This document shows positions 4,019 through 46,840 of a DNA stretch of 47,195 nucleotides, piece after piece (the stretch's first letter is position 1; each line of letters begins with the position of its first letter). Below the pieces are notes generated by a model. The model saw only the letters and a list, made by a program, of their open reading frames with translations. It made no database searches and was not told where the DNA came from. Position numbers and translations under genes: made by a program. Location of the stretch: contig JALSUP010000009.1 in assembly GCA_027071315.1 (NCBI GenBank), positions 1 to 47,195 of the forward strand. Direction: 5' to 3'. Origin of the DNA: Sulfurovum sp. Its GTDB lineage: Bacteria; Campylobacterota; Campylobacteria; Campylobacterales; Sulfurovaceae.

Positions 4019-4624
4019 TTATCTTATAATATATACTAATGGAAAGAGAATAATCCATAAAAAATCTACCATATGCCAATACGCAGCACCACTCACTATC
4101 CCTTTATGATCTTCGATGGTATAGCCATAGATTCTTGTCTTTTGAAAAATATTAAATAAAATAATAGAGCCTAGAAGCACATGCATAAAGTGAAAGCCGG
4201 TCAACATAAAATAAAACATAAAGAACTTGTTTGTACTAAGAGTAAGTCCTTCCCCAAACATATGAGAAAACTCAAATATCTTATTGACTAAAAACCCAGC
4301 ACTAAAAATCATAGCAAGAAACAACCATTTGGATGCTTTTTTATTGAACTCTTCACGGCGATTATCTGTCATGTTTTGAATACTTGTGACTGCTTTCACC
4401 ACAAAATAGCTACTTGTTACCAAAAGCAGCGTATTGATAAACCCTGATGTTGTCTCCAGCATCAGCTGAGAGTGGTTAAACATTTCAAGATTTGCTCTGC
4501 GTGAAAAAGCGTAACCTATAAAAAAAAGACCAAAGGTAATAAGTTCCACATAAATAATGATCCAAATGCCGAAATCCCCAGGAGGATATGGCTCTTTTTT
4601 CAGTGCTGCATTATGCATCTTCAT
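4019..4624 (-). CDS. norE: NorE-like cytochrome c oxidase subunit III family protein
   Basis: PPGDFGIWIIIYVELITFGLFFIGYAFSRR and GFHFMHVLLG...AAYWHMVDFLWIILFPLVYI are subunit III motifs; start trimmed to MKMHNAALKK. Confidence 0.8.
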   Translation of the reverse strand: MKMHNAALKKEPYPPGDFGIWIIIYVELITFGLFFIGYAFSRRANLEMFNHSQLMLETTSGFINTLLLVTSSYFVVKAVTSIQNMTDNRREEFNKKASKWLFLAMIFSAGFLVNKIFEFSHMFGEGLTLSTNKFFMFYFMLTGFHFMHVLLGSIILFNIFQKTRIYGYTIEDHKGIVSGAAYWHMVDFLWIILFPLVYIIR

Positions 4625-5411
4625 TCTTTGTAAAATGGAGTGCAATAAGCTTTTCAAGTACTGAGAGTACATCATTGTCATCACTCAGTGATTCCACTAT
4701 CGTATGCATACAGGCTTGATAGGGATCAAATCCTTTGACAATAAGTTTCCCTGCATAGATAAGCAGTCTTGTGGATACGGCTTCTTGAATGTCTGTATCA
4801 TCAAGTTGTCTTATCTCGCTTGCGATATCTACAAGCTTTTGTGCAGTCTGGGCATCTACGCCACTTTCATTGATGAGTACCTCTTTTTCTATATCAGGTT
4901 TTGGATAATCAAAACTCAAAGAAATAAAACGCTGTTTTGTGCTGGGCTTCATTCCTTTAAGTACATTTTGATACCCGGGATTATAAGAGACTACAAGCAT
5001 AAAGTCCGGATGTGCTTCTATCACTTCACCTGTTCTGTCTATGGGTAGGATTCTTCTGTAATCAGCAAGAGAATGGAGTACAACAGTGGTGTCTTTTCTG
5101 GCTTCAATAATTTCATCAATATAACAAATGCCACCATTGCGTACCGCTTTTGTCAATGGTCCATCCTGCCAATAAGTACCATTTTCATCTATAAGGTGTC
5201 GACCGACCAAATCGGCTGCACTTAAATCATCATGACAAACCACAGTATAGACATCTCGACCAAGTTCTTCACCCATAGCTTCGATAAATCTGGTTTTTCC
5301 GCATCCTGTGGGTCCTTTGATCAGAACAGGCAGATTCATACCTGCGGCTGCTTGAAAAAGCTCCACTTCATTTGATTGGGGTAAATAGTAAGTGTGTGAC
5401 ATCATTTTCAT
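4611..5411 (-). CDS. norQ: NorQ/CbbQ-family MoxR AAA+ ATPase
   Basis: Walker A (GPTGCGKTRF), Walker B (GGICYIDEIIEA), CbbQ/NorQ C-terminal region; 5' to norE. Confidence 0.9.
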   Translation of the reverse strand: MKMMSHTYYLPQSNEVELFQAAAGMNLPVLIKGPTGCGKTRFIEAMGEELGRDVYTVVCHDDLSAADLVGRHLIDENGTYWQDGPLTKAVRNGGICYIDEIIEARKDTTVVLHSLADYRRILPIDRTGEVIEAHPDFMLVVSYNPGYQNVLKGMKPSTKQRFISLSFDYPKPDIEKEVLINESGVDAQTAQKLVDIASEIRQLDDTDIQEAVSTRLLIYAGKLIVKGFDPYQACMHTIVESLSDDNDVLSVLEKLIALHFTKNEDA

Positions 5412-5414
5412 TCC

Positions 5415-7220
5415 TTATTTGGTTAAATTTATATAAACTTCAGTAAGCACTTTTGGTAACTTTTGTCCATTGCGTACAATAGCATAGCCGTTAGCGCCAA
5501 AAAGATAATTCAAATACTCTTTTGCATCCAGATCAATCGTAATACAAAATGGTGTAATCCCTTTTTTCTTCGCTTCCTGAAGTGCTTTTTTTGTATCTTC
5601 AATACCGTAACGCCCATCATATCTATCTTCATCATTTGGTTTACCGTCACTAATGATAAGTAAGAGTTTATTTGAATTTTGCTGTTTATCTAATATGGTG
5701 ATACTCTCCCGAATAGCAGCACCCATTCTGGTATAGTATTGTGGCTTTATGCTATCAATTCTACCGCGTATCAAAGCATCATATCTGTCTTTAAAATTTT
5801 TAATAATATTAAAATAGACCTTTTTATTTTGAAGTGAAGAAAAAGTATAAATAGCAAATTTATCTTCAAGCTTCTCAAGGGCTTCGCTAAAAACCATCAG
5901 CGAATCTTTAATCACATCGATAATTCGTATCTCTTGGGTGATACCCCCTTCTGTCGAGAGTGATATGTCGGCTAAAAGCAGTGTCGACATATCACGTGTT
6001 TTTTTTTCATAAGTGGTGTAGAAATTTTGATGATGCATTGATTTGTTTTGATGTGACATATACTCTATCCAGCTATCCATATTGAGTTCATCTCCATACG
6101 GTAGACGGTCATTTTTAATGCGATTGAGTTGGAGCATATCAAGTTCCGCCTGAATGTGTTTGACCGTTTTTTTAAGTCTTTGTGGAAGTTCTATGGGGAG
6201 TACATTCATAGTGACTTGTGGTAAGATACGGGCATATTTCACTAAATAATCATTTTTTTTGTAATCCCACTCATCCAAATAGTGTCCTTTGCCAAGTGGA
6301 TATATCACCGTATTGTCAGGTAAAAGTTCCAAATCCATTTTAATACGTGCCGAAAGGTTTGCCTGTTTCTGTCCAATGGTGATCTCATCCAAATCCTCAG
6401 CATGATACAACGCATCTTCATCAAAACTGTCATCTTCGCATCGGTCTACATTTACTTGCTCAAAGATACTCATTAAAGATTCTGGTAAAAAAGCCAAGAA
6501 ACCATCTGTTTCATGTTTGTCATCTATCTGTTCGGTCTGCTTTTTCATCTGAAGCTCTTCAGATTGATCCCTATCATCTCTTGTTGGCGCTACTTGTTCT
6601 TCCTCTTCGTTATCGTTGGCATAGTTCGCCGTGATAGAGGGTGGGTATATCCATAAAGGGTTTGGATACGCATTTATTAAATCTTCATTTGACTGTGCAT
6701 CTAAAGAGTTAAGAAATGATAATTGTTCATATTTATCCACAAGGTAAGGTGTTGCTTCTTTGTAAAAAAGATCAAAACCGCTATATCGTTTTGTAAGGTA
6801 ATGCAGCGCTTGCATATTTTGTTCTATAAGGTTGCGGTTGTTTATGTTTTTCACTTGTGCTGCAAGTGCAACAAGCCAATAGTAAAGCATCTCATTTTGC
6901 TCTTTTGTAGCAAAATAGGCGAATGATGCAGGAAGATAGACAGCCTCTTCATCTTGCCATGTCAAGTAAAATTCTTTTCCTAAAAAAGAGAGCTTTTCTA
7001 AAAGTGTTCGTGTCGTCTCAACATATCTTTTGTCCGTTATTTTAAGTTCTTTTGCTTTTTCACCACCTATAAGGCGGTGAAAAATATGTAAAGATTTGGA
7101 AATGTCTTCAAAATAGACTATCTGCTCTTCATGAAATTTATGGACTTTCTTATTGAGATATCTATCCCAAACTTTTCCCATACTCTCTTCAAATTCAAGC
7201 CAATAATGAAGCATTTTCAT
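5415..7220 (-). CDS. norD: NorD, VWA-domain nitric oxide reductase activation protein
   Basis: VWA domain (LLLADISLSTEGG..., LLLIISDGKPNDEDRYDGRYGIEDTKKAL) and position next to norQ and norB. Confidence 0.9.
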   Translation of the reverse strand: MKMLHYWLEFEESMGKVWDRYLNKKVHKFHEEQIVYFEDISKSLHIFHRLIGGEKAKELKITDKRYVETTRTLLEKLSFLGKEFYLTWQDEEAVYLPASFAYFATKEQNEMLYYWLVALAAQVKNINNRNLIEQNMQALHYLTKRYSGFDLFYKEATPYLVDKYEQLSFLNSLDAQSNEDLINAYPNPLWIYPPSITANYANDNEEEEQVAPTRDDRDQSEELQMKKQTEQIDDKHETDGFLAFLPESLMSIFEQVNVDRCEDDSFDEDALYHAEDLDEITIGQKQANLSARIKMDLELLPDNTVIYPLGKGHYLDEWDYKKNDYLVKYARILPQVTMNVLPIELPQRLKKTVKHIQAELDMLQLNRIKNDRLPYGDELNMDSWIEYMSHQNKSMHHQNFYTTYEKKTRDMSTLLLADISLSTEGGITQEIRIIDVIKDSLMVFSEALEKLEDKFAIYTFSSLQNKKVYFNIIKNFKDRYDALIRGRIDSIKPQYYTRMGAAIRESITILDKQQNSNKLLLIISDGKPNDEDRYDGRYGIEDTKKALQEAKKKGITPFCITIDLDAKEYLNYLFGANGYAIVRNGQKLPKVLTEVYINLTK

Positions 7221-7223
7221 GGA

Positions 7224-8606
<1,383 letters not shown>

Positions 8607-9053
8607 CTACCCTTCAATTGTTGGTGGCCATTCATTGGCATTGATTTTTGATGTCCAGATTAGAAAATCCGATAAATTATCAACTTCTGCCGGTGTTAAA
8701 TGAAACTGTGGCATTTTTCTTCTGTTTGGTGTACTGAGCGGTTGTGCAGCCATCCACCCTTGCATATAAGCTTTAAATGTTGTTTCGTCAGAAGCGCCTC
8801 TTCTTTGAAATACGTTCATGAGTTCCGGTGCATAATAAGCGCCTTCTCCCACAATAGTATGACAGCCGACACAGTCATTTTTTTCCCAAAGTTTCTTTCC
8901 TGCTACAACACTTTCAGTCATATTCTGCTGATTGGACCGCTTTGGAATTTGATGTACAGTATCAAAAGTAAGGGCAATGAATATCAACAGTGCGAATGTA
9001 CCGCCACCATAATAGATATTCTTTGCCATACTTTTCGTTATACGTTCAGTCAT
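8607..9053 (-). CDS. norC: Nitric oxide reductase cytochrome c subunit
   Basis: N-terminal TM, CVGCHTIVGEGAYYAPELMNVFQRRG, upstream of norB. Confidence 0.95.
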   Translation of the reverse strand: MTERITKSMAKNIYYGGGTFALLIFIALTFDTVHQIPKRSNQQNMTESVVAGKKLWEKNDCVGCHTIVGEGAYYAPELMNVFQRRGASDETTFKAYMQGWMAAQPLSTPNRRKMPQFHLTPAEVDNLSDFLIWTSKINANEWPPTIEG

Positions 9054-9070
9054 GGATTATCCTCTTTTTA

Positions 9071-9093
9071 AATTCTACCAGTAAGTAGTAATT
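9071..9093. promoter_or_regulatory. Operator-like imperfect palindrome, copy 1
   Basis: aattctaccagtaagtagtaatt; near-identical to the copy at 9116-9138. Confidence 0.6.
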
Positions 9094-9115
9094 GGAATAT
9101 TAGCGAGATATTATT

Positions 9116-9138
9116 AATTCTACCTTTAAGTAGTAATT
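9116..9138. promoter_or_regulatory. Operator-like imperfect palindrome, copy 2
   Basis: aattctacctttaagtagtaatt; overlaps the -35 region implied by TATAAT at 9152-9157. Confidence 0.6.
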
Positions 9139-9189
9139 ATATTTATTTTTGTATAATATGACGCAAAAATGATTATTTAAAGGAGTCAT

Positions 9190-9603
9190 ATGCAATTGAG
9201 CAACAGTTCACAATATGCTATAAGGATCCTAGCTTATATGGCAGATCAAAAAGATTCTAAACTTATGAATGCTACAGAACTGGCGGGAGCACTCTATATA
9301 CCCTATAAATTTTTGACTAAAATCATGACGGAACTTGTAAAAGTCGGTTTGGTGGTATCAATACGGGGAAGAGAAGGCGGATACAAATTTGAAAAGAAAA
9401 CTTCCGAAATCATGGTGAGTGATATTCTGGATATCTTTAATGATTCTATAAAAGACGAGCAGTGTGTTTTGGGTATAGGCTTTTGTAACGGGCTGTGTAA
9501 ATGTGCTTTGCATGACCAGTGGATGGAACCGAAACTTTTGCTGCAAAGAATGTTTCGGGAATCGAGCCTGGAAGATATTGCCGGAAGAGGATGTAAAATA
9601 TAG
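9190..9603 (+). CDS. Rrf2-family transcriptional regulator (NsrR-like)
   Basis: N-terminal MQLSNSSQYAIRILAYMA, RGREGGYKF wing, Cys cluster (CVLGIGFCNGLCKCALHDQW); divergent from norC. Confidence 0.85.
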   Translation: MQLSNSSQYAIRILAYMADQKDSKLMNATELAGALYIPYKFLTKIMTELVKVGLVVSIRGREGGYKFEKKTSEIMVSDILDIFNDSIKDEQCVLGIGFCNGLCKCALHDQWMEPKLLLQRMFRESSLEDIAGRGCKI

Positions 9604-33970: not shown

Positions 33971-34027
33971 AATAACCTTATGTGAAGTTGATTTTTGAAA
34001 GTATAGAAGCTTTTCCCTAAAGATCGC

Positions 34028-34041
34028 TTGATGAATATCAA
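34028..34041. promoter_or_regulatory. CRP/FNR-family box in a divergent promoter
   Basis: TTGATGAATATCAA; TATGAT at 34064-34069 (+) and TATACT at 34000-34005 (-), symmetric about the box. Confidence 0.7.
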
Positions 34042-34096
34042 TTGGCTTATATCCAAACTGTGTTATGATTCTTTAAACAATTTAATAGGTGAAATT

Positions 34097-34462
34097 ATGA
34101 GCAATTTTTTATTTTTAGAGGGTGCATACCTTATACTCGGGGCGATCATTTTACTGGTGACACTTTTTGTCTCTACGCGACCGTTTATGAGTAAAGGTGC
34201 ATGGAAAAAAGGACTTTTCTGGGTCACAGTCGTGCTTGCTGTTATGATCGGTGCACACTACAACCTTACCATGAGTAGAATGGCCGAAGTAAAAGCAGCT
34301 TTTGAGAAAGACCTTCCTATTTTATGTGAAAGCAGAATGCAGCGAAAAGTGGCTCAAACAGTCACCATACAGAAATCAAATGACTGGTTCCTCGAAAACG
34401 ACAACTTCAGCTCTCCGAACTACTCAAGACCGTTCTTCGCGGCACGTTGTATTGTAAAATAA
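34097..34462 (+). CDS. Hypothetical membrane protein (2 TM)
   Basis: 121 aa from MSNFLFLEGAYLILGAIILL; downstream of the box at 34028. Confidence 0.65.
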   Translation: MSNFLFLEGAYLILGAIILLVTLFVSTRPFMSKGAWKKGLFWVTVVLAVMIGAHYNLTMSRMAEVKAAFEKDLPILCESRMQRKVAQTVTIQKSNDWFLENDNFSSPNYSRPFFAARCIVK

Positions 34463-34477
34463 CCTTTTACAATACAA
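34447..34477 (+). terminator. Perfect 13-bp stem-loop overlapping the stop codon of the 34097 gene
   Basis: ttgtattgtaaaa-taacc-ttttacaatacaa. Confidence 0.55.
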
Positions 34478-34554: not shown

Positions 34555-34645
34555 TCTTATCGATTTGTTAAACTGTCATAATACTTTCATGCTCGAAGGT
34601 TTTGACCCTTTCAGTTAAAATAGATAAACGACAGGAGTCCATTGG

Positions 34646-34996
34646 ATGGAAAATATGATCATAAGACCAGAGATCGCGTTAGATCAGTTCTTACCGGTTT
34701 TTGTAGAATCGACACTTGTGCTTGTTTTCGGTGTGGGGTATGCAGCAATCATCACCCTTGCCAAAATGGGCTATTTTTCCAAAAAATGGATGGTCGTCGG
34801 ATATCTGTTTTGGGCATTACAAACATATTTCTTGTATGATTTCGCAATGTTGATCCAGAGCAACCACTTTACGATGAAAGTATTGATGGTCACAATGGTG
34901 GCGTATCTTTTTGTTCCGCACCTGTATTTTTACTTGATATCAGCTGCGGACGATCGTTACGAAGATAAAGACGAAATAGTACAAGATACAAAATAA
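34646..34996 (+). CDS. Hypothetical membrane protein (3-4 TM), first gene of the second NOR locus
   Basis: 116 aa, hydrophobic, 11 bp upstream of norC2. Confidence 0.7.
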   Translation: MENMIIRPEIALDQFLPVFVESTLVLVFGVGYAAIITLAKMGYFSKKWMVVGYLFWALQTYFLYDFAMLIQSNHFTMKVLMVTMVAYLFVPHLYFYLISAADDRYEDKDEIVQDTK

Positions 34997-35007
34997 AAGG
35001 AGGACAC

Positions 35008-35688
35008 ATGGCTAACGAAAATGTTTCGGTTTGGACCAGTATACCATTTTGGCGTCGTTCAGCGGCATGGGTAACAGGATTTGCAACTATCTTGTTGATT
35101 TGGCTTTCATTTGACACACTTGGACAAATAAGTATGAATGAAGACATTAAAATGAATATCGACGGTAAAGAGGTAAACAAGAGGGTACCTGGACCAACGG
35201 TGATCAACTATAAAATTGGTTATGCAATGAGTAAAGAGAGAGGGCACGAAGTACCGACTATTGGTGAAAAGCAGCCGTTCTTTGGTAAAGAGTGGAGTCA
35301 AAAAGAGGCGGCAGATCTGTTGCACCTTGGTAAATTGACATCTCAGGCAAAGAACTGTATGAACTGTCATACATTGTTAGGGAACGGGGCATATTTTGCA
35401 CCGGACCTTACCAAAGCATGGTTAGATCCGGCTTGGCAAAATGGCGGACCGCTTCAGGGAATGACAGGGAAAAATACAGTTGAAGAAGCAATGGCAGAGT
35501 TCTTGCAGCATCCTTCACAGTATCCTACTCACGCACGTATGATGCCAGATCTTGGAATCACTGCAGATGAAGCAAAAGGATTGGTAGCTTTCCTCAAACA
35601 TATGAGTTCTATCGACACAAACGGTTTCCCGAGAAACTTCTCTAAAACAGTAGAACAATTCAAAGCAGGAGGCACAAATGCTCACTAG
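35008..35688 (+). CDS. NorC-like monohaem cytochrome subunit with extended periplasmic insertion
   Basis: N-terminal TM; CMNCHTLLGNGAYFAPDLTKAWLDPAW; 226 aa versus 148 aa in norC1; overlaps norB2 start. Confidence 0.88.
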   Translation: MANENVSVWTSIPFWRRSAAWVTGFATILLIWLSFDTLGQISMNEDIKMNIDGKEVNKRVPGPTVINYKIGYAMSKERGHEVPTIGEKQPFFGKEWSQKEAADLLHLGKLTSQAKNCMNCHTLLGNGAYFAPDLTKAWLDPAWQNGGPLQGMTGKNTVEEAMAEFLQHPSQYPTHARMMPDLGITADEAKGLVAFLKHMSSIDTNGFPRNFSKTVEQFKAGGTNAH

Positions 35689-37120
35689 TATTAAAACAAA
35701 TAAATTTGAAGGAAGTAAAACCAAAGAATTGGCAATGATGTATTTCAGAGTTGCAATCATTCTTTTTGGTGCACAGCTTCTTTTTGGACTTGTTGCGGCA
35801 ATCCAGTTCTTGGTTCCGGGGTTCTTATTTGAACTTTTAGACTTCTCTGTAGCAAGAACAGTGCATATTAATGCCCTGGTCGTTTGGATGCTTTATGCAA
35901 TGATCGGTTCTGTTTACTTTATGTTGGATGATGAAACAGAAGTAGAGGGTGTTGGTATAGGTCTTGGAAAGCTTGCTTTCTGGATACTTACAGCAGCAGT
36001 TACAGTGGTTGTACTTGTCTATATTCTTGTTCAAGTCGGTGCCGGTACAGAAGCATCTATCTGGTTCATTAACGAAGGTAGAGAGTATATTGAAGCACCA
36101 AGATGGGCCGATATCGGTATCGTTGTTGTTGTCCTTGTCTTTTACTGGAACGTATTTGCTACTTATCTGAAAGGTAAGCAGACAGGAATCATGACTGTCA
36201 TGGTCGCTGACCTTCTTGCGCTTGCAGGTCTTTATATGGCTGGTATGTTCTTTACAGACAACATCTCAATGGATCAATTCTGGTGGTGGTGGGTAATACA
36301 CCTTTGGGTTGAAGCAACTTGGGAAGTATTCGTTGGTACTTTGGCAGCGTTCGCGCTTATCAAGATCATCGGTGCTAAAAGAGAAATCGTTGAAATGTGG
36401 CTATGGATCGAAGTCCTTATGCTATTTGGATCTGGTATCCTTGGTATGGGTCACCACTACTTCTGGATCGGTACACCTGAGTACTGGTGGGAAATTGGTG
36501 CACTATTCTCAGCACTGGAGCCGGTTCCATTGGTAGCAATGTTTGTTCACGTCCTTTACGACTGGGGTAAAGAGCAGGGTATTGCAAAAGCAGCAGGTAA
36601 AACAGGTTCAGTGATGAACAACGGACCAGCAATGGCATGGATCGTCACCAATGCATTTGGTAACTTCTTGGGTGCAGGTATCTGGGGTTTCTTCCATACT
36701 TTACCTCAAGTAAACATCTATACACACGGTACACAGTTTACAGCGGCACACGGTCACCTGGCATTCTTTGGTGCCTATGCAACGATCCTTATTGGTATGA
36801 TGTACATGGGTGTTCAGTATGCTTACGGAATCGAAAGACTCAGAGCAACATTCAAGTCTAAAATGGGAATATTCCTTATTACATTTGGTGTACTAGGGAT
36901 GGGTATTGCCTTGACCATCGCAGGATACGAGCAGGTACTTGTTGAAAGAGCAGAACTTGGTGGCGGATGGAATGCATTCTTTGCTGCACAGGAGTTACCT
37001 TGGTATATTCAGAGTATGATGTGGAGAGCGATCATGGGTGTAGTTACATTCGTAGGATTCATCTATCTTGTTTGGGATCTATTGACCATAGGTGCCCAGG
37101 CGAAAAAAGCGCAAGCATAA
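35678..37120 (+). CDS. norB: Second nitric oxide reductase large subunit (NorB-like)
   Basis: [29 protein letters not shown]...GMGHHYFWIGTPEYWWEIG...THGTQFTAAHGHLAFFGAYA. Confidence 0.92.
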   Translation: MLTSIKTNKFEGSKTKELAMMYFRVAIILFGAQLLFGLVAAIQFLVPGFLFELLDFSVARTVHINALVVWMLYAMIGSVYFMLDDETEVEGVGIGLGKLAFWILTAAVTVVVLVYILVQVGAGTEASIWFINEGREYIEAPRWADIGIVVVVLVFYWNVFATYLKGKQTGIMTVMVADLLALAGLYMAGMFFTDNISMDQFWWWWVIHLWVEATWEVFVGTLAAFALIKIIGAKREIVEMWLWIEVLMLFGSGILGMGHHYFWIGTPEYWWEIGALFSALEPVPLVAMFVHVLYDWGKEQGIAKAAGKTGSVMNNGPAMAWIVTNAFGNFLGAGIWGFFHTLPQVNIYTHGTQFTAAHGHLAFFGAYATILIGMMYMGVQYAYGIERLRATFKSKMGIFLITFGVLGMGIALTIAGYEQVLVERAELGGGWNAFFAAQELPWYIQSMMWRAIMGVVTFVGFIYLVWDLLTIGAQAKKAQA

Positions 37121-37165: not shown

Positions 37166-37312
37166 ATGTTCGAACCATTCACAGATGTCGTACCAAGTTT
37201 TTTTGGTATGTTAAATCAGGGACCTTTGACACTGACTATCTTTTTACATACGGTAATTATTTTGCCGATGTTCTGGATATATTTCAGTGAAAAGAAAAGA
37301 CTTAATAAATAG
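37166..37312 (+). CDS. 48-aa small single-TM protein (not in supplied ORF track)
   Basis: MFEPFTDVVPSFFGMLNQGPLTLTIFLHTVIILPMFWIYFSEKKRLNK, preceded by aaaggagaaaatt. Confidence 0.6.
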   Translation: MFEPFTDVVPSFFGMLNQGPLTLTIFLHTVIILPMFWIYFSEKKRLNK

Positions 37313-37500: not shown

Positions 37501-39243
37501 ATGAAAATGAACAAACTATTGAGTTTAGCAGCGGCGACAAGCCTTTTTGCAACGATGGCTTTGGCCGGAACATCAACTATGGACTTTGCACAGAAATTTG
37601 AAAAAGAGTGTCAGGGATGTCACGGACCGATCCACCAGGGTGGTGTTGGATCTGACCTTAGACCTAAAGCGCTTAAATCAAAGAGTAGAGAATTCCTAGC
37701 AGAGAGAATTTTACACGGGGTAGAAAATACAGCCATGCCGGCATGGGAATCTTCATTTTCCAAAGATGATGCCGCTGGTATGATTGACTGGTTGATGGAC
37801 TGGAAAAACACAGTTGAGTTGACACTCAGTTTTGATGAAGTACATAAATCCTGGACTAAATTGGCTGACAGAGATGCCTTGGCTAAAAAATATCCTGTCG
37901 ATAAAAGTGGTAAGCTTACCTATAAAGGTGCAGAAGTTAAGAATGTAAAAGATATTACATTTGCAACAGAAAGAGATGCTTCTTTGGTTGACTTTATTGA
38001 TTCAACGACAGGTAAGGTACTTTCCCGTCACAAAGCAGGATTTGCGGTACACGTCACAGTAACAAACAAAAATGAGCCAAGATATGCATACTCAATTTCC
38101 CGTTCAGGTAAATTGACAATGTTTGACATAGGTGCTCCGGGACAACCGGCATTGGCATCTGTTCAGGTTGGACAGGAGTCAAGAGGTCTTGCAGTATCTC
38201 CGGATGGTAAATACATTCTTGCAGGTAACTATAACCCGGGTGGTGCAGTACTTTGTGATGCACATACACTTGAGCCTCTAAAAGTATACGACACAAGCCG
38301 TGTTATTGACCCTGATGGACAAATCGGACCGTCAAGAGTTGCAGGTATTGCAGATACGCCATACGGACCGTATTTTGCAATGGCATTGAAAGATGGTGGA
38401 CATACATATATCATCGATTACTCCAAGCCTGACTTCCCGATCGTGGGAGATATTGCGAATATCGGTAAGATCCTGCATGACTGTTTCCTGAATGAGAATG
38501 AAGGTGAAGACTTTGGTCGTTACTTTATGATCGCTTCCCAGGGTTCAGACCTTATGGGTATTGTTGACTTTAAAACAAAAGCGTTGGCAGCAAAAGTACA
38601 CACAGGTAAAAAGTCCAAGCCACACCCAGGTCAGGGTTCATCTTGGTACAACAAGAAGTTAGGTAAGCAGTTGAACGCGACTAACTCTATGAACTTCGGT
38701 TCTGTTGTTATCTGGGAGTCTCCAAGCTGGGAAATCGTTAAAAAAGTTGAAACAGCCGGTGGTGGTCTGTTCGTAGGTACTGCTGAGCATACACCTTGGA
38801 TCTGGTCTGACTGTGTTCTTGGTAAGCCGGACAAGTATAATGAAGTGCACCTGATCAATAAAGAGACACTTGAGACTGACAGAATCATTAAAGTCGGTAA
38901 GACCAAGGGTCAGTTGATCGATGCGAAGACTAAAAAAGTACTTCAAGAGTGGGATGCAACACAGCATGAAAAAGTGCCTGTAAATGAGAAAGCATTTGGT
39001 CAAGAGAAGATCATGCCTATGCCGGATCATTTAGGTAAAGCAGTGAAAGATCCTGTACAACCAAGATTGCTTCACGCTGAGCCTGCGAACCACGGTAAGT
39101 GGACAATGATCTCTGAGTGGACTACCGGAAGAATCGGTATCTACGAGTCAGATACAGGTAAGTTCGTTAAGTATATCAATAACTTGACAACACCTACATT
39201 TACTTACTCAGTTGAGCACAGACAACATATTCCGGGTGCTTAA
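37501..39243 (+). CDS. nirS: Cytochrome cd1 nitrite reductase
   Basis: Signal peptide; haem c motif CQGCH; d1-domain His positions present by motif (GFAVHVT, ILHDCF, KPHPGQG). Confidence 0.92.
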   Translation: MKMNKLLSLAAATSLFATMALAGTSTMDFAQKFEKECQGCHGPIHQGGVGSDLRPKALKSKSREFLAERILHGVENTAMPAWESSFSKDDAAGMIDWLMDWKNTVELTLSFDEVHKSWTKLADRDALAKKYPVDKSGKLTYKGAEVKNVKDITFATERDASLVDFIDSTTGKVLSRHKAGFAVHVTVTNKNEPRYAYSISRSGKLTMFDIGAPGQPALASVQVGQESRGLAVSPDGKYILAGNYNPGGAVLCDAHTLEPLKVYDTSRVIDPDGQIGPSRVAGIADTPYGPYFAMALKDGGHTYIIDYSKPDFPIVGDIANIGKILHDCFLNENEGEDFGRYFMIASQGSDLMGIVDFKTKALAAKVHTGKKSKPHPGQGSSWYNKKLGKQLNATNSMNFGSVVIWESPSWEIVKKVETAGGGLFVGTAEHTPWIWSDCVLGKPDKYNEVHLINKETLETDRIIKVGKTKGQLIDAKTKKVLQEWDATQHEKVPVNEKAFGQEKIMPMPDHLGKAVKDPVQPRLLHAEPANHGKWTMISEWTTGRIGIYESDTGKFVKYINNLTTPTFTYSVEHRQHIPGA

Positions 39244-46826: not shown

Positions 46827-46840
46827 TTGATACGTATCAA
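46827..46840. promoter_or_regulatory. Perfect FNR-type palindrome upstream of nrdB
   Basis: TTGATACGTATCAA; minus-strand TACACT at 46799-46804 (implied box centre -41.5). Confidence 0.65.

Follow-up and report, generated by a model that had tools for sequence, protein, structure and literature searches.

Two divergent transcripts for small membrane proteins share a predicted DNR/FNR-type class II site, and one of the proteins co-occurs with a NorB2-type nitric oxide reductase in Campylobacteria

The DNA analysed in this work is a stretch of 47,195 nucleotides (the window) from Sulfurovum sp., which we take to be a sulfur-oxidising ocean bacterium. The window contains a palindrome, TTGATGAATATCAA, located between two divergent transcripts for small membrane proteins (viz. 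P0001 on one side, P0002 and P0003 on the other), next to the genes for a nitric oxide (NO) reductase (norC2 and norB2) and for the nitrite reductase NirS (Table 1). An earlier note on this DNA had described mirror-image -10 hexamers at equal distances from the palindrome, and both hexamers are read directly at 32.0 bp from its centre, the right-hand one (TATGAT) occupying positions 34064-34069 (centre 34066.5). If a -10 hexamer is taken to span -12 to -7, this distance centres the dyad at -41.5 relative to either transcript, which is the class II position of Crp/Fnr activators. We predict with high confidence that TTGATGAATATCAA is a genuine DNR/FNR-type class II site. On the minus strand, the segment between the box and the left -10 hexamer (34007-34024) contains conserved A-/T-tracts (AAAA and a T-rich run; at most 1.4 bits per column) that have no counterpart on the right side.

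The reading frames described in the earlier note were also recovered (viz. 127 aa on the left and 121 aa on the right), except that the second protein on the left consists of 62 aa and not of the claimed 63. The perfect 13-bp stem-loop reported at the end of the right-hand frame is likewise present, and it is a possible local terminator. However, a 13-bp stem at the end of P0001 is found in 2 of 78 relatives, most of which have stems of 4-7 bp, near those of shuffled controls, and because of this lack of conservation the stem-loop was dropped as a shared regulatory element. A search of Rfam gave no match.

Table 1. Features of the P0003–nirS region and of the nirF promoter (positions are those of the window).
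Feature	Position	Strand	Characteristics
P0003, 62 aa	33397-33585	minus	Two predicted TM helices (hydropathy); downstream of P0002
P0002, 127 aa	33587-33970	minus	N-terminal membrane helix and predicted periplasmic alpha/beta domain
-10 TATACT of P0002-P0003 promoter	34000-34005, centre 34002.5	minus	Conserved as TCTATACT; 32.0 bp from box centre
FNR/DNR-type dyad TTGATGAATATCAA	34028-34041, centre 34034.5		Common to two divergent promoters; read directly
Extended -10 TGTTATGAT of P0001 promoter	34061-34069	plus	TG at 34061-34062, then TATGAT
P0001, 121 aa	34097-34462	plus	Two TM helices, then small beta domain
Perfect 13-bp inverted repeat	34447-34459 / 34465-34477		Loop TAACC holds P0001 stop codon
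Second box TTGATATATGTCAA	34541-34554		For P0004-norC2-norB2
-10 CATAAT of P0004-norC2-norB2 promoter	34577-34582	plus	32 bp from box centre
P0004, 116 aa membrane protein	34646-34996	plus	Immediately upstream of norC2
norC2, cytochrome c subunit	35008-35688	plus	52% identical to Thermus thermophilus NorC
norB2, catalytic subunit	35678-37120	plus	53% identical to Thermus thermophilus NorB
48-aa single-TM ORF	37166-37312	plus	Between norB2 and nirS
nirS, cytochrome cd1 nitrite reductase	37501-39243	plus
Box TTGACACATATCAA	42147-42160		Precedes nirF (ATG 42220); TACAAT 33 bp away

P0001 and P0002 have no match in Pfam/NCBIfam, no relative in the PDB by sequence (single sequences and profiles) and no PDB fold match in Foldseek searches with their confident AF2 models (pLDDT 92.2 and 90.8, respectively). 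A weak match of P0002 to cytochrome P460 (E 0.24) vanished when a profile was used. P0001 has two invariant cysteines (C77 and C118), each kept in 67/67 sequences, and the positive loop between its helices leads us to predict a periplasmic location for the C-terminal beta domain. The invariant residues of P0002 are Y37, P45, G54, I57, and W85. A separate set of 80 named contigs, many of them from the same species, was also fetched and provided 78 usable P0001 genes. P0003 is present in 69 of these 80 named loci, and where P0002 is absent, as it is from part of this group, P0003 is directly divergent from P0001. The arrangement in the Arcobacteraceae and some others, with P0001 behind nirDLGH and P0002 next to sirC, suggests heme d1 no less than NOR. 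Three P0001 loci in contigs labelled Bipolaricaulota, Thermotogota, and Desulfosporosinus (L133, L177, and L197, respectively) probably represent misbinned Campylobacterota contigs.

The NO reductase subunits encoded beside these genes retain the residues of their class. NorC2 carries its CXXCH motif as CMNCH, and an alignment of NorB2 to 3o0r (E 3e-92) indicates that the motifs HLWVE, GHH, THGTQ, and AHGH, which hold the FeB and heme ligands, are kept. NorB2 shares about 40% identity with NorB1, which the window also encodes, and, among the matches listed, its 53% identity to Thermus NorB compares with at most 39% to other plasmid-borne cNORs, so that NorB2/NorC2 are closest to the Thermus NorCBH type among these matches. 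The preceding gene, P0004, is present in 79 of 151 family genomes and co-occurs with P0001 (phi 0.92). It is possibly NorH-like, being collinear with Thermus NorH over 70 columns (pairwise E 0.0055, probability 6.7%, with an HMM score not above all shuffles). The 48-aa ORF has a tblastn match in 45 of the 80 named loci (best matches 85-96% identical) and may possibly represent an overlooked small subunit. In many Campylobacteria (viz. G001, G157, G180, G206, G431, and others) nirS is replaced by a gene for a NirS-like protein of about 30% identity next to norB2, often with two such genes in tandem. One genome has, besides an intact nirS, a second nirS-like copy elsewhere (G088:C92:9480-11138) that is decayed and interrupted by 12 in-frame stops.

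Of 75 divergent intergenic regions between P0002 and P0001 in family relatives, 74 contain the sequence TTGAN6TCAA. The left hexamer, which is preceded by a conserved TC, matches TATAAT in at least 4 of 6 positions at exactly 32 bp in 72 of these 74 relatives, with columns of up to 1.8 bits, whereas the right hexamer is found at 32 bp in 53 of 74 and at 33 bp in most others. Exact mirror symmetry was therefore rejected as a conserved feature, and what is kept is class II spacing on each side. Among the named contigs, the box is located 5' of 69 of 78 P0001 orthologues, all 69 of which have a -10 hexamer (at least 4/6) at 32 or 33 bp (43 and 26 loci, respectively), compared with a background of 5.7% of 250-bp tiles of the same contigs that contain a box. 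A box is similarly located upstream of the P0004-norC2-norB2 operon in 63 of 65 named loci, and 62 of these 63 have the hexamer (at least 4/6) at exactly 32 bp. The family-wide presence of this box with class II spacing indicates that it is a selected regulatory element.

The 2.59-Mb genome contains 12 perfect copies of TTGATN4ATCAA, compared to 3 of a reversed control pattern, and 26 copies of TTGAYN4RTCAA, compared to 10 for its control. A match to TATAAT of at least 5/6 at 32/33 bp is present at 16 of these 26 sites, as against 3.7% of nearby random positions, and the distances are sharply concentrated, with 12 sites at 32 bp and 4 sites at 33 bp, whereas each of the other distances tested accounts for 0-3. 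The targets, identified by sequence reading, comprise nosZ, a site behind nosZ, norC2B2, nirF, an Lrp-like gene of nirDLGH, an FmdE-like/hemerythrin/DUF2249/NnrS operon, a DUF2249-NnrS pair, a hemerythrin-like protein, and an ABC-type periplasmic protein. The occurrence of the same box and spacing at nosZ, nirDLGH, nirF, nnrS/hemerythrin, and norC2B2 therefore identifies a denitrification regulon, and a set of the nir/nor/nos/nnrS type is the classic content of DNR-type regulons (PMC1274295). A perfect box, TTGATACGTATCAA, is also present at 46827-46840, 58 bp upstream of nrdB, which encodes the small subunit of ribonucleotide reductase; TACACT lies 32 bp from this box. A further box at 4716 is probably fortuitous, because it lies inside norQ and has no -10 hexamer at 32 bp. 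No box is present in the promoter region of norC1B1QD (~4600-9053), which encodes the other NO reductase of the window. Between norC1 and a divergent Rrf2-family gene (9190-9603; the two lying within 8607-9603 of the window) there are repeated TACTACTTA-like motifs in the form of direct repeats. As norC1 has no FNR box and is located beside an Rrf2-family gene, the two NO reductases seem to be controlled by different regulators.

The Crp helix-turn-helix model has four matches among the proteins of the genome, and of these Crp/Fnr-type proteins only one, encoded in the C200:14729 region (C200:14.7 kb), has an E-xx-SR helix (ETFSR; LTPETFSRIL). This protein (PF13545, 50.4 bits) has two boxes near its gene, which is part of the nirDLGH/siroheme cluster, and inspection of its sequence shows no N-terminal [4Fe-4S] Cys cluster of the FNR kind. 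In Poseidonibacter ostreae, an ETLSR protein that is 34% identical to it directly adjoins P0002. The activator that binds the box is likely this DNR-like Crp/Fnr protein with the ETFSR helix, which would sense NO. That an FNR-like oxygen sensor or a different Crp/Fnr member acts here in place of an NO-responsive DNR appears rather unlikely to us: TTGATN4ATCAA is the consensus of both FNR and DNR (PMC1274295) and nrdB also carries the box, but the candidate lacks the N-terminal Cys cluster of FNR, its targets are those of denitrification, and no FNR orthologue is known in Campylobacterota according to a review that calls the metabolic regulation of this group an enigma (PMC6682613). The DNR regulon of denitrifying Pseudomonas and beta-proteobacteria is similar in its TTGATN4ATCAA box, its nir, nor, nos, and nnrS targets, and a regulator with an E-xx-SR helix but no FNR Cys cluster; the present case differs in its Campylobacterota host, in the half-site TTGAY, in the inclusion of P0001-P0003 among the targets, and in the use of a single dyad by two class II promoters that point in opposite directions. 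The NssR regulon of Campylobacter jejuni is a Crp/Fnr-family nitrosative response within the same phylum, which differs in its recognition sequence and is not known to include denitrification genes.

The distribution of P0001 was determined in 378 Campylobacteria genomes, each at least 90% complete, using cut-offs of E <= 1e-20 for P0001 and at least 60% identity for NorB2; weaker partial P0001 matches (E 1e-6 to 1e-3) were left out of the counts. P0001 is present in 68 of these genomes and NorB2 in 67, with 67 genomes having both, one having P0001 only (G274), none having NorB2 only, and 310 having neither, which corresponds to a phi of 0.991. This value is inflated by co-inheritance, as many genomes carry both genes in one denitrification island at a distance of no more than 10-20 kb, and its p-values are not literal because the genomes are related. 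The independent distribution of orthologues relative to nirS/nor that would have spoken against the earlier note is thus not what is found, P0001 being present in 67 of 67 NorB2 genomes and in one further genome. The co-occurrence that it had anticipated with both nirS and norB2 is, however, strong for NorB2 and weaker for nirS in general (phi 0.72, rising to 0.94 when the 30%-identical NirS-like proteins are counted). The phi of P0001 with NorB1 of the canonical norCBQD is 0.08. Within the family, P0001 and P0002 co-occur with a phi of 0.93, and the exceptions to the pairing of P0001 with P0002 and with P0004 are mostly incomplete genomes. In the genera that differ internally (g1, g10, g18, and g63), P0001 and NorB2 have been gained or lost together. 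The two genes are neighbours in Sulfurovaceae, whereas in other groups 10-20 kb often separate them, and in G202 more than 400 kb. P0001 is found in 0 of 10 NorB1-only genomes and is absent from 45 genomes with more distant, mostly long NorB-like (qNor-type) proteins. Five well-assembled genomes (G029, G056, G387, G478, and G484) have a NirS of at least 60% identity, yet lack both NorB2 and P0001; at least G056 and G387 among them carry NorB1 with NorD. The proposal that the divergent genes are part of the nitrogen-oxide response is supported by these results, the same box and geometry being present at known denitrification genes and P0001 tracking NorB2.

NorD was detected in exactly 15 genomes, namely all those with NorB1. 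Genomes with NorB2 alone yielded no NorD, although a very divergent one could be missed. To judge from the title of an article by Appelgren and Adelroth (2025), cNORs lacking metal-inserting chaperones are reportedly already known. NorQ and NorD have been reported to be essential for FeB insertion in the Paracoccus cNOR (PMC9976466), and Thermus has norCBH (PMC7694296). The Thermus thermophilus system resembles that described here in the sequences of NorB and NorC (53 and 52% identical), in a small membrane protein encoded with norCB, and in a plasmid nor locus without norQ or norD beside norCBH, whereas it differs in that NorH follows norB and P0004, which is only weakly NorH-like, precedes norC2. 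No P0001 or P0002 was detected near the Thermus nor locus, the closest relative found outside the phylum, and a plasmid search did not find P0001 on any plasmid. The norEFCBQD genes of the canonical cNOR also include accessory proteins that co-occur with the reductase, and NorE and NorF are membrane proteins too. In contrast, P0001-P0004 have no meaningful Pfam/NCBIfam match and NorD is absent from the NorB2-only genomes.

We propose that the palindrome is a DNR/FNR-type activator site in the class II position for two divergent sigma70-type promoters, and one of about 16 such sites in the genome that make up the denitrification regulon. The DNR-like protein encoded beside nirDLGH would switch these genes on once nitrite is reduced and NO appears. 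The divergent transcripts would then provide P0001 and P0002/P0003 as small membrane proteins serving the co-regulated NorB2-type NO reductase, an enzyme of the Thermus NorCBH type that would work in genomes where no NorD is found. P0001 together with P0002-P0004, and perhaps the 48-aa ORF, may act in the assembly, cofactor insertion or stability of NorC2B2; alternatively, the same P0001-P0004 set could couple NirS to NorC2B2. The explanation as a whole (viz. a DNR/FNR-type class II regulon, with P0001-P0003 serving the NorB2-type reductase) is one that we moderately favour. That P0001 is an accessory factor for NorC2B2 is the best reading of its distribution, and we regard it as an evenly balanced proposition. 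A bolder and rather doubtful extension is that P0001, P0004, the 48-aa ORF, and P0002/P0003 constitute a NorQD-independent assembly or extra-subunit set for the NorCBH-type reductases of Campylobacteria. Such a set would act from the periplasmic or membrane side, inserting the non-heme iron site or protecting it, without an AAA+ motor.

The main rival to this explanation is that P0001 and P0002 serve NirS, in heme d1 biosynthesis, in d1 insertion or export, or in the anchoring of NirS, and that their association with NorB2 is due solely to the two enzymes being carried together. The location of P0001 directly after nirDLGH in Poseidonibacter and other loci, with P0002 adjoining sirC or a regulator, is the best argument for such a role, to which the higher phi obtained with NirS-like proteins counted may be added. 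NirS was initially considered as the partner, but NorB2 proved the better fit to the distribution: the phi with NorB2 is higher still, and the five NirS-positive genomes without NorB2 are also without P0001, so that we consider the NirS reading a tentative alternative of limited likelihood. It is less probable again that P0001-P0003 are general nitrosative-stress membrane proteins hitchhiking in the denitrification island with no role specific to NOR or NirS; they are indeed small membrane proteins that evolve fast and belong to an NO-type regulon with nnrS and hemerythrin genes among its other targets, but they show no sign of independence, being missing from the NorB1-only and qNor-type genomes alike. 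A chance arrangement of the palindrome and mirror hexamers can be dismissed almost entirely, for although about 4-5 boxes with at most one mismatch are expected per 47-kb window, this reading is already refuted by the conservation of box and class II spacing across the family, and the box is enriched genome-wide.

Among the organisms that denitrify and cycle N2O at vents and in sulfidic sediments, the Campylobacterota are a major group, and the locus described here yields a concrete regulon, box and candidate regulator for this group. As judged by sequence comparison, the DNA element appears to be of a known type (the DNR/FNR box), and the putative accessory protein set appears to be without a recognised family. 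The unannotated P0001 family pairs almost one to one with one kind of NO reductase, in genomes without a detected NorD. P0001 is hence to be regarded as a good candidate for the missing helper of the NorB2-type NO reductase, and its pairing with NorB2 where NorD is not found makes the iron supply of a NorQD-less cNOR directly testable.
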